From assembly GCA_016934535.1 (NCBI GenBank), contig JAFGSQ010000019.1, positions 6,873 through 70,872 of the forward strand: a stretch of 64,000 nt of DNA. Reading direction: 5' to 3'. Under the pieces are notes generated by a model. It had not been told where the DNA came from and ran no database searches. It worked only from the letters and a program-made list of their open reading frames with translations. Each line of letters opens with the position of its first letter. The first letter of the stretch is position 1. A program made the translations under genes and the position numbers. Source of the stretch: a candidate division WOR-3 bacterium (lineage in GTDB: Bacteria; SDB-A). Positions 25,038 to 27,497 of the stretch are shown here, in pieces.

Positions 25038-25088
25038 CTATTATTAACCTTGTGCAATGTTGTACAACAAATAACAGGAGGTGCTATG

Positions 25089-26681
25089 ATGAGAATGTTT
25101 TTAGTGCTGTCTCTGGCACTGCTGACGCTCGCCTCGGCTGCTTTTACCGAGAATTTTTCCAGAGCCGGGAATCCCGACCCTGAAATACTTCCCTCTATAA
25201 CCGGAACCATGTTCAGACAGGGCTCCAGGGCCGGCGACGTACTTTTCGTCGAGGCTTGCGGTCAGCCAGGTTTCGGCCCGGCTACAAAACCCGACCCGAG
25301 ATGGACGATGTATCTCGACTCGACTCTCGGTCCCGGCAACTACGACTGGTACGGACCGATAAACGACACCGGCGACGGCCCGACGGTCGACACGATGCTT
25401 ATGTACGATCTGGTCATCTGGAACACTTACGATTGGTGGTGGACAAGTCCGACTTATCCGTCTACGACCTCTCTCAACAACATGGCGTTGTACATGGATC
25501 AGGGCGGAAAGGTCTGGTTCATAGGCCAGGACGCGCACTGGAGCACGGGCACAGGTATGAACGCCTGGCTGCTTTCATATTTTGAAGTCCAGAGCGTCAC
25601 AGACGATGTCATAAACGGCGTCTCTCCAATAACCTGCACCGGCGAAAATTTCCTCACCGGATTCAGCTACTCGAACGCTTCCGATTTTGCTTCGAACGAT
25701 TTTTACTCCGACGGCCTGACTATGACCGCCAACGGACAAACCGTTACAGCGTCTTCCGGCTATCACATCAACTCCCTGGCCAACGACTCTAATGCAGCAT
25801 ACTGGACTAACGACCTGAGAACAATATCTCCAAACTCCACACCGATAGCCATAGTAGATACAATGCTGGATTACCTTTTGGGCACCGGCACAGGTCCCGA
25901 CTACTGTGACACCATCACTTACTGGAACTGGGGAGACATTGAAAACGGAATAAACTACGGAGATCCGCCGGAATGGATGGCGATGGCGATCAAACTGACC
26001 CAGACAGAACTCTCTCCCTACACCGGAAGATACATCCGCAATGTGTGGTTCCAGCTCAGAACGGGCACCAACCCTGCCGCTGACGCCAGGGTAATCGTCT
26101 TGGGCGATACTGCTGTGGGCGACACACTCGCAGTAGTTCCTTTCACGGTTACCGGAGATTCCGGATGGTATTACATATCTCTCGGAGATGATTCCGTTCT
26201 TATCAACCCGACTGACACTCTCTGGATAATGGTCGGATTCACTTATGCTTCCGGAAATTATCCCTTCCCCTGCAACGCCGGATCTCTTATAGCTCAGAAG
26301 AGCGATTGGGCCTGGACAAACTCCGGAGGATGGGAATATCTCAGCGCTTACGGTCTCAACTACGGTTGGTGCATAGTCGCGACGACGTGCGCCGCCAACT
26401 CCGTCGAAGAAGAGATAATCGGTTCGCCGATATATCCTTTTGACGTCAGAGCAGTGACACCCATAGGAAGAAAGACTGCGATAAGCTTCTCGAGTCCTTT
26501 CATGGTCGGCGTCAATGTCAACGTATTTGACGTCACCGGAAGAATCGTCGAGAACCTCTTCTCGGGATCAATTCAGGGACAGAGGACTTTTGAGTTCACT
26601 TCAGACGTTCCGGGGACCTATTTCTATCAGGTCAACGCTTCGGGTGTAAACTACACGGGTAAACTGACGATCATAGACTGA
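25089..26681 (+). CDS. Secreted protein with C-terminal sorting-like domain
   Basis: About 530 residues, exported by a Sec signal (MRMFLVLSLALLTLASAA). The N-terminal half has a Rossmann-like segment (MLMYDLVIWNTYDWW then MDQGGKVWFIGQDAHW) resembling one in the M1 peptidase at 37533. The middle (about 280-440) is beta-rich. The last 80 residues (ISFSSPFMVGVNVNVFDVTG to YTGKLTIID) form a FlgD-like/type IX-style C-terminal sorting domain. AGGAGG precedes two ATGs; 25089 has better spacing than 25086. I see no catalytic motif; an exported surface or extracellular protein is the safe reading. Confidence 0.75.
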   Translation: MRMFLVLSLALLTLASAAFTENFSRAGNPDPEILPSITGTMFRQGSRAGDVLFVEACGQPGFGPATKPDPRWTMYLDSTLGPGNYDWYGPINDTGDGPTVDTMLMYDLVIWNTYDWWWTSPTYPSTTSLNNMALYMDQGGKVWFIGQDAHWSTGTGMNAWLLSYFEVQSVTDDVINGVSPITCTGENFLTGFSYSNASDFASNDFYSDGLTMTANGQTVTASSGYHINSLANDSNAAYWTNDLRTISPNSTPIAIVDTMLDYLLGTGTGPDYCDTITYWNWGDIENGINYGDPPEWMAMAIKLTQTELSPYTGRYIRNVWFQLRTGTNPAADARVIVLGDTAVGDTLAVVPFTVTGDSGWYYISLGDDSVLINPTDTLWIMVGFTYASGNYPFPCNAGSLIAQKSDWAWTNSGGWEYLSAYGLNYGWCIVATTCAANSVEEEIIGSPIYPFDVRAVTPIGRKTAISFSSPFMVGVNVNVFDVTGRIVENLFSGSIQGQRTFEFTSDVPGTYFYQVNASGVNYTGKLTIID

Positions 26682-26697
26682 GGATCTTTTCCTTATA

Positions 26698-26729
26698 AAG
26701 AGGGGGGCCCTGCTCCCCTCTTTTTTTTA
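26698..26729 (+). terminator. Intrinsic terminator
   Basis: An 8-bp perfect stem (AAGAGGGG at 26698-26705 with CCCCTCTT at 26715-26722) and nine-base loop run into a stretch of T. It lies 16 bases after the stop of the secreted-protein gene. Confidence 0.85.
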
Positions 26730-26785: not shown

Positions 26786-26917
26786 CTACCACGAAGTATA
26801 AAATTTTGGGACAAATTTTATATGACACTGTTTTATTTCTTCCTGCTTCGTGTAGGAGGATTGCTTGCAATCCTCTTTTCGTGCAGGTGGGAAGCGATGC
26901 TTCCCACCCTTCGTGGT
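26786..26917. repeat. Hairpin block A
   Basis: Order: CTACCACGAAG; stem TATAAAATTT/AAATTTTATA (26797-26822, 10 bp, loop 6); CTTCGTG (26846-26852); stem GAGGATTG/CAATCCTC (26856-26875, loop 4); a degenerate TTTTCGTG; stem GGTGGGAAGC/GCTTCCCACC (26886-26908, 10 bp, loop 3); CTTCGTGGT (26909-26917). The three stems are perfect. Confidence 0.9.
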
Positions 26918-26966
26918 TGATATCTCTTGTTCTTTCTCTTTATATTAAATACAAAATACAATTTTT

Positions 26967-27185
26967 ACCACGAAGCAGAGGCATGTTAAATTACATTCAG
27001 CATGCCTCTTACACGAAGGTCTGCTTATTTGCACAGAGCAAATAAGCAGCCTACACGAAGTATAAAATTTGTGAAACAAATTTTATATGAAAAAGTTCTT
27101 TGGATTAATTTTCTTCACCTTCGTGAAGATGGATTGTTTACAATCCATCCTTCGTGAAGCCGCTAATATTCGCGGCCTTCGTGGT
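26967..27185. repeat. Hairpin block B
   Basis: Order: ACCACGAAG; stem AGAGGCATG/CATGCCTCT (26977-27009, loop 15); ACACGAAG; stem CTGCTTATTTG/CAAATAAGCAG (27021-27049, 11 bp, loop 7); ACACGAAG; stem TATAAAATTTG/CAAATTTTATA (27061-27087, 11 bp, loop 5); CTTCGTGAAG; stem ATGGATTG/CAATCCAT (27129-27148, loop 4); CTTCGTGAAG; stem GCCGC/GCGGC (27159-27176); CTTCGTGGT (27177-27185). Five perfect stems. From the TATAAAATTT stem rightward it is homologous to block A. Confidence 0.9.
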
Positions 27186-27241
27186 GGATATCTCTTTTTG
27201 TTTTTATTTCTAAGTTTAATTAAAGAAATAAGAGAATTTCT

Positions 27242-27362
27242 ACCACGAAGCAGAGACATGTTAAATTACATTCAGCATGCCTCTTACACGAAGGTCTGCT
27301 TATTTGCACAGAGCAAATAAGCAGACTACACGAAATATAAAATTTGTGAAACAAATTTTATA
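27242..27362. repeat. Hairpin block C, partial copy of block B
   Basis: These 121 bases repeat 26967-27087 of block B with three substitutions, all to A, at 27256, 27325 and 27335. The first breaks one base pair of the AGAG-CATG stem (now AGAGACATG against CATGCCTCT); the last turns CACGAAG into CACGAAA. The copies are 275 bases apart. The right half of the block is replaced by the decayed unit ending at 27419. Confidence 0.92.
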
Positions 27363-27497
27363 AATAAACCTCTTTCTGCTTTCTTTCCTTTGTGTTCCAA
27401 TTTTTGTTTGCAAAAATTGTATCCGCGGTTATATTCTTTTTCTTAAACTTCATAATGAAATCCCAAGTTGTGATTTCAGCCGACGAAAGTTTTATGT

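Follow-up and report, generated by a model that had tools for sequence, protein, structure and literature searches.

The question raised by this locus is what kind of element is formed by the array of hairpins at positions 26788–27419 of the window, the stretch of 64,000 nucleotides from a candidate division WOR-3 bacterium that was analyzed. A sequence-only reading had described about twelve stems in 0.63 kb, and this is borne out by the presence of 12 hairpins (C1, D1, and D2 in a first block, A1, B1, C2, D3, and D4 in a second, and A2, B2, C3, and E in a third) together with 11 exact CACGAAG or CTTCGTG words, located by sequence inspection and a repeat finder. The 11 heptamers compare with a mean of 0.04 and a maximum of 1 in 1000 dinucleotide shuffles, and the nine nonoverlapping perfect stems of ≥8 bp with a mean of 0.11 and a maximum of 2 in 300 dinucleotide shuffles, an excess over shuffled sequence whose absence would have refuted the earlier reading; for the full set of 12 hairpins, the comparison is with ≤0.5 stems in shuffles. 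Over the whole window, enrichment of the heptamer is only mild (16 copies versus 8.7 expected), because the array contains 11 of the 16.

The unit of each block is a nine-letter word with CACGAAG as its end, which is direct in the left half and inverted in the right half, as had been noticed previously; consecutive words are separated by a single hairpin. Block 2 (26967–27185, plus strand) is a complete canonical element in which ACCACGAAG is followed by hairpin A (26977–27009), TACACGAAG, hairpin B (27021–27049), TACACGAAG, hairpin C (27061–27087), a spacer, CTTCGTGAA, a D hairpin (27128–27149), CTTCGTGAA, a second D hairpin (27159–27176), and CTTCGTGGT. Block 1 (26788–26917, plus strand) is shorter, consisting of ACCACGAAG, a C hairpin (26797–26822), a T-rich spacer, CTTCGTGTA, a D hairpin (26856–26875), TTTCGTGCA, a D hairpin (26886–26908), and CTTCGTGGT. 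Block 3 (27242–27430, the end being approximate, plus strand) runs from ACCACGAAG through A (27252–27284), TACACGAAG, B (27294–27326), TACACGAAA, C (27336–27362), a spacer, a decayed CTTTGTGTTCC, and a hairpin at 27398–27419 to TATCCGCGGTT. The proposal that each block is bounded by ACCACGAAG and CTTCGTGGT is therefore correct for blocks 1 and 2 but not for block 3, whose right end has decayed to CTTTGTG, the hairpin, and TATCCGCGGTT. The blocks are separated by AT-rich, unstranded linkers, one between blocks 1 and 2 (26918–26966, TGATATC...AATTTTT), both ends of which are conserved block flanks elsewhere, and one between blocks 2 and 3 (27186–27241, GGATATC...AATTTCT). The element is polar: in many copies, AATACAATTTCT-like sequence lies before the A/B/C side and TGATATC-like sequence comes after the D side, and the matched ends of the copies in the same genome read AATTTCT joined to ACCACGAAG and CTTCGTGGT joined to TGATATC. 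Two open reading frames over the array, of 77 and 79 amino acids, cross hairpins and repeat each other and are therefore not genes. An intrinsic terminator-like hairpin with a T run (26697–26727, plus strand) lies outside the array, belongs to the upstream gene, and is conserved in two genomes of the same genus, G001 and G002. It should also be noted that the protein encoded at 25050–26681 of the window has a weak Por_Secre_tail match and a C-terminal end resembling a sorting tail, and that sorting-tail-like C termini occur in proteins beside several arrays (in the window and in L213, L230, and L300).

Single-strand folding predicts a trunk, made by pairing of direct with inverted heptamers, from which the A, B, C, and D hairpins branch. 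This tree with paired heptamers is predicted in four blocks (z about −7 to −16): block 2 (z −13.5 as DNA and −12.6 as RNA, with the heptamers paired as the trunk), block 1 (z −7.5 as DNA), L002 from contig C10 of the genome containing the window (z −15.6), and L223 from contig C12 of G002 (z −11.8), the last two having the layout of block 2. The ACCACGAAG and CTTCGTGGT ends are terminal inverted repeats and are paired with each other in the predicted folds. Trunk pairing of the heptamers would explain their direct orientation on the left and inverted orientation on the right.

The distribution of the array was examined in its own genome (G000; 2.23 Mb, 76 contigs), in G001 and G002, and in G003, a member of the same family; the counts for these genomes are based on searches together with fetched stretches. 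Recurrence of the motif in the genome and its relatives, which the sequence-only reading had offered as a check, was found in G000, G001, and G002. The motif recurs at about 20 places in its own genome, a blastn search with the array giving 25. Many of these lie no more than a few hundred bases from a contig end, where the repeat probably broke the assembly; the assembly consequently conceals some array structure. The pattern of CACGAAG followed after 15–40 nucleotides by ACACGAAG has 12, 10, and 6 matches in G000, G001, and G002, respectively, and none in G003, with 0 in the reversed control; in other genomes this pattern gave few matches, none with such a hairpin between the words. Similarly, WHCACGAAG occurs 137, 112, and 119 times in the three genomes of the genus (control, 63, 46, and 35) versus 17 times in G003 (control, 76). 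A three-word pattern occurs in at least 115 stretches, in many contigs, of a collection of 84,980 species, and among the listed matches that were examined, palindromic modules of the type found in the genus stand between the words in L086 alone, a contig of candidate division WOR-3. Among the genomes examined and the matches listed, the branched repeat is a dispersed intergenic family of one WOR-3 genus, its arrays being short, AT-rich, and noncoding with many intergenic copies. A phage or plasmid origin was rejected, since collections of 72,556 plasmids and 50,697 phages contain no match to the array. Searches of IMG/VR with 16-mers from two block ends gave 23 and 4 matches, nearly all without a second heptamer nearby and at about the level of chance, and a three-heptamer spaced pattern was found in 21 viral contigs, those inspected being either tandem repeats or plain words that lack hairpins of this kind. 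Literature searches with the repeat strings found nothing relevant. CRISPR was rejected because the sequences between words are palindromes shared among several loci; in addition, the orientation flips within a block. The opinion that the array is neither a CRISPR, a simple terminator, nor an insertion sequence is supported, since it occurs in numerous intergenic regions of three species and varies between orthologous sites.

This variability is evident at the locus itself. In G002 (contig C135), both neighboring genes and the upstream terminator are retained with a single decayed block, and alignment of the flanks indicates that about 509 bp (26823–27331, unstranded, with boundaries that float within the repeated C hairpin) are absent, the right half of block 3 being the part common to the G002 site; G001 has a different, shorter array at this position. 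An array of G000 (contig C61, 8200–8490) corresponds to one remnant word in G002. Conversely, about 3 kb of G002 contig C12, between an SRAP-family gene and bioY (both named by eye), is missing in contig C11 of G000 and contig C40 of G001; this stretch consists, in order, of an array, an MNT/HepT gene pair, an array, a Fic gene, and an array. Empty or near-empty sites are thus present at three loci (the window locus, G000 C61, and G002 C12), with flanks too diverged for a target-site duplication or an exact insertion end to be read. Given these differences between orthologous sites, the element is not a constant regulatory component of the adjacent genes.

The hairpins were compared in a set of 67 modules, defined as between-word segments of ≤35 nucleotides from the three genomes, of which 60 pair end to end at ≥75%, compared with a mean of 0.95 for shuffled segments. 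In the 22-nucleotide D class, 96.8% of cells are paired, with 26 double changes; its covariation score of 0.547 compares with 0.174 in shuffles and was reached by 0 of 500. In the 33-nucleotide B class, 92.9% are paired, with 12 double changes and again 0 of 500 shuffles as high; these counts are inflated by related rows, and the signal is destroyed when the partner is slid by 1–3 columns. Across copies, the hairpins therefore hold their register and complementarity while the letters vary on both arms. Two hairpins are chimeric. In GAAAAAATGTAAACAATCCATC (G000 C61), the left half is exactly that of one module and the right half exactly that of another, and in GCTCTCTTGTTTGC joined to AAAAATTG (G002 C42, L225; seen by eye), a B hairpin is joined to a different hairpin at the common apex GTTTGC; in both, the joint is at the hairpin tip. 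An automatic search for half-and-half chimeras returned one clean case. The covariation fits either of two explanations, selection for structure or template switching, which converts imperfect to perfect palindromes, and could instead reflect selection on an RNA. An RNA element was among the suggestions of the earlier reading. A structured regulatory or noncoding RNA family, maintained because selection acts on its fold, would account for the strong compensatory changes in the modules and for the RNA folding score of block 2 (z −12.6). We nevertheless consider this unlikely, since a search of Rfam 15 at the gathering score gave no match to the array (the single match being a tRNA), the number and order of modules differ from block to block, next to the same downstream gene G001 and G002 lack the window array or have a different one, so that it is not conserved with this gene, and the neighbors of the arrays range from housekeeping genes to Fic, leaving no common regulon; template switching can, moreover, perfect palindromes in the absence of selection.

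The suggestion of a REP-like family holds in that the array is a dispersed repeat that varies at orthologous sites, but the specific version in which, as in REPIN/RAYT systems, a domesticated Y1 (HUH) transposase acts in trans to mobilize hairpin doublets is not supported. The enzyme search covered Y1_Tnp and tyrosine recombinases. Each genome, including the array-free G003, encodes exactly one Y1_Tnp protein, of 288–308 residues (among the genes, L232 937–1863, L235 1417–2301, and L234 1441–2307), and single-copy, vertically kept genes of this kind are typical of RAYTs (PMC3116915). However, the loci around these genes (L232–L235) contain no array, the nearest in G000 being 4.7 kb away, and G003 has an intact Y1 gene but no arrays. 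The HUH motif is HFH in G000 and HYH in G003 but SFQ in G001 and SFH in G002, indicating that the protein is probably inactive where arrays are abundant. The arrays resemble REPINs (PMC3116915) in comprising short dispersed palindromes, inverted pairs, and clusters formed by insertion into one another, and in the accompanying single-copy Y1 gene, but differ in that the conserved inverted word is the heptamer between hairpins, the hairpins themselves vary in sequence with no conserved REP-type hairpin or inverted doublet, no array is beside the Y1 gene, and HUH is lost in two hosts. A RAYT-like mechanism therefore appears quite improbable. The Y1 protein, whose HUH motif is disrupted in G001 and G002 among the three genomes of the genus, may therefore be kept for a noncatalytic role, and that of G000 has an additional weak match to the DnaA C-terminal domain. 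Across the Y1_Tnp and tyrosine recombinase searches, no dedicated enzyme or transposase could be tied to the array.

Some arrays occur in pairs that enclose genes. A survey of fetched stretches yielded five gene-bearing intervals between paired arrays, all in the relatives, and all five hold genes of accessory type. Between paired arrays are found MNT with HepT and, separately, Fic (G002 C12); a PDDEXK_3/GxxExxY-type nuclease (G001 C28), which is the only GxxExxY gene of G001, there being none in G000 or G002; a nucleotidyltransferase with weak similarity to AbiEii and a small open reading frame (G002 C126); and BrnA with a broken BrnT-like frame, BrnT being named by eye (G002 C48, L227 2097–2650). 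Genes with an array on one side include Fic (G000 C61), HsdR (G002 C48 and G001 C81), and an AAA_14/DUF4143 ATPase of PADLOC candidate family PDC-S01 (G001 C49); both Fic proteins match PADLOC SoFic. The Fic cassette of G002 C12 has an 84% identical relative at a nonorthologous site in G001 (C75), again between array remnants, and the flanks of the C12 site are 69–72% identical to their orthologs. Numerous further arrays are solitary, with housekeeping genes on either side. The association of paired arrays with accessory genes is suggestive, coming as it does from a handful of intervals.

These observations bear on the proposal of an attC-like cassette array, in which, as in integrons, a tyrosine recombinase would recombine the hairpins as single strands and so collect toxin-antitoxin and defense cassettes. 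The cassette part is independently supported, because paired arrays enclose small accessory genes; the hairpins with conserved words and the recurrence of one Fic cassette at two unrelated sites also fit. The defining IntI-type integrase, on the other hand, was found in none of G000, G001, and G002: G000 and G001 each encode only two tyrosine recombinases, all the size of XerC/XerD (one pair being 81% identical), and in G002 none was detected. Integron attC arrays likewise have imperfect hairpins beside small accessory genes, but here there are several hairpins per site at dispersed loci, cassettes are not gathered behind one integrase, and most arrays are solitary among housekeeping genes. 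An integron-like system consequently has only a slim chance of being correct, although XerC/D may act on the arrays. A broader possibility is that the single-stranded, tree-folding blocks are platforms for cassette-trading recombination without an integron integrase, on which small toxin-antitoxin and anti-phage genes are assembled at numerous sites in the chromosome, a simpler form being represented by the plain CACGAAG arrays found in other phyla; this we regard as doubtful, if somewhat less so than the other alternatives.

The reading that we prefer, and consider likely, is that the array comprises three tandem copies of a noncoding, nonautonomous modular palindromic repeat, in the style of MITE, BOX, or REPIN elements, which is dispersed intergenically in one WOR-3 genus, folds as a tree with a heptamer trunk, and has its modules swapped by recombination or template switching. 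A block is one long inverted repeat, each arm of which is a series of heptamers with one hairpin module per heptamer gap, and, when extruded as single-stranded DNA or transcribed, is predicted to form a tree with a heptamer trunk and hairpin branches. Arrays would grow, shrink, and exchange modules through recombination, template switching, or replication slippage between copies, which would be joined at heptamers and at the tips of hairpins; cleavage of hairpin tips by SbcCD-type enzymes is an example of a route to recombination or slippage at hairpins. Pairs of arrays would supply homology for the gain and loss of the small toxin-antitoxin or defense-type genes that they enclose. Host recombination and hairpin processing would be the likeliest drivers of present change, and the original spread may have depended on a putative transposase acting in trans.

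The small dispersed repeats (SDR) of Nostoc and the double-hairpin elements or GC clusters of fungal mitochondria are tiny palindromes nested in other repeats, as the modules here apparently are, but have no known sequence in common with the arrays and no heptamer framework. A closer parallel is provided by the BOX elements of Streptococcus pneumoniae (boxA-boxBn-boxC; PMC3049150), which are also modular with a variable number of modules, inverted and mutually pairing ends, strong folding, intergenic locations, and no transposase of their own. The arrays differ from BOX in having many different palindromes in fixed register between copies of one heptamer, unrelated ends, and a WOR-3 host.

The heptamer also exists in a simpler context. 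Plain ACCACGAAGnACACGAAG without hairpins is present in 8 of 386 genomes, with 49 copies in G333 and 10 in G232, and is mostly intergenic in the inspected loci; G333 is an unrelated 6.2-Mb genome in which the repeat is intergenic in most of L241, L248, L253, L256, L259, L261, L263, L265, and L267. One G001 array retains a plain ACCACGAAGGACACGAAG step beside its hairpin modules, which suggests that the hairpin form is probably an outgrowth of the plain repeat. The best reading is that of a new modular family of nonautonomous palindromic repeats built on the widespread plain ACCACGAAGnACACGAAG repeat. Intergenic heptamer repeats such as TAACTGA have been described for Beggiatoaceae (PMC4679880); these and the plain ACCACGAAGnACACGAAG repeats of other phyla are, like the arrays, intergenic strings of a single heptamer scattered over distant phyla, but TAACTGA is a different word and the plain forms have no hairpins between heptamers. 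A chromosomal binding array, also raised in the sequence-only reading, for which a nucleoid or segregation protein that recognizes CACGAAG would be responsible, would suit both the conservation of the heptamer at fixed positions and the plain heptamer arrays of other phyla; it does not account for the existence of hairpins, for heptamers that pair from one side of a block to the other, or for the differences among species, and is the least probable of the readings considered.

A second word family in the same genomes, C(A/G)CGAAT, has its own hairpins between words, CCGATTTTTCAT...ATGAAAAATC and CAATTTTTGTTTGCAAAAATTG (L230 1–180, L284 1350–1560, L286 1–200, and L287 1150–1310), so that the layout of hairpins between words is not confined to CACGAAG. 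In the Chloroflexi MAG REEB485, strings of CACGAAG are numerous, alternate with GGGCGGGAGACGGGCTCA-like tracts, and frequently lie at contig ends (L098, L099, L112, L116, L119, L132, L151, and L154). The association of plain arrays with 23S_rRNA_IVP (four-helix) is unsupported here, there being weak matches only, one in G001 and one in G003.

The family offers a concrete link from the CCACGAAG-type heptamer repeats, which are unnamed and widespread in many phyla, to an elaborate folded descendant. It clearly illustrates conservation of the short word between hairpins together with freedom of the hairpins to vary, provided that both arms vary together. Two questions thereby become testable: whether structural selection maintains the perfect palindromes of bacterial repeats or template switching produces them, and whether toxin-antitoxin and anti-phage genes collect at dispersed palindromic repeats.
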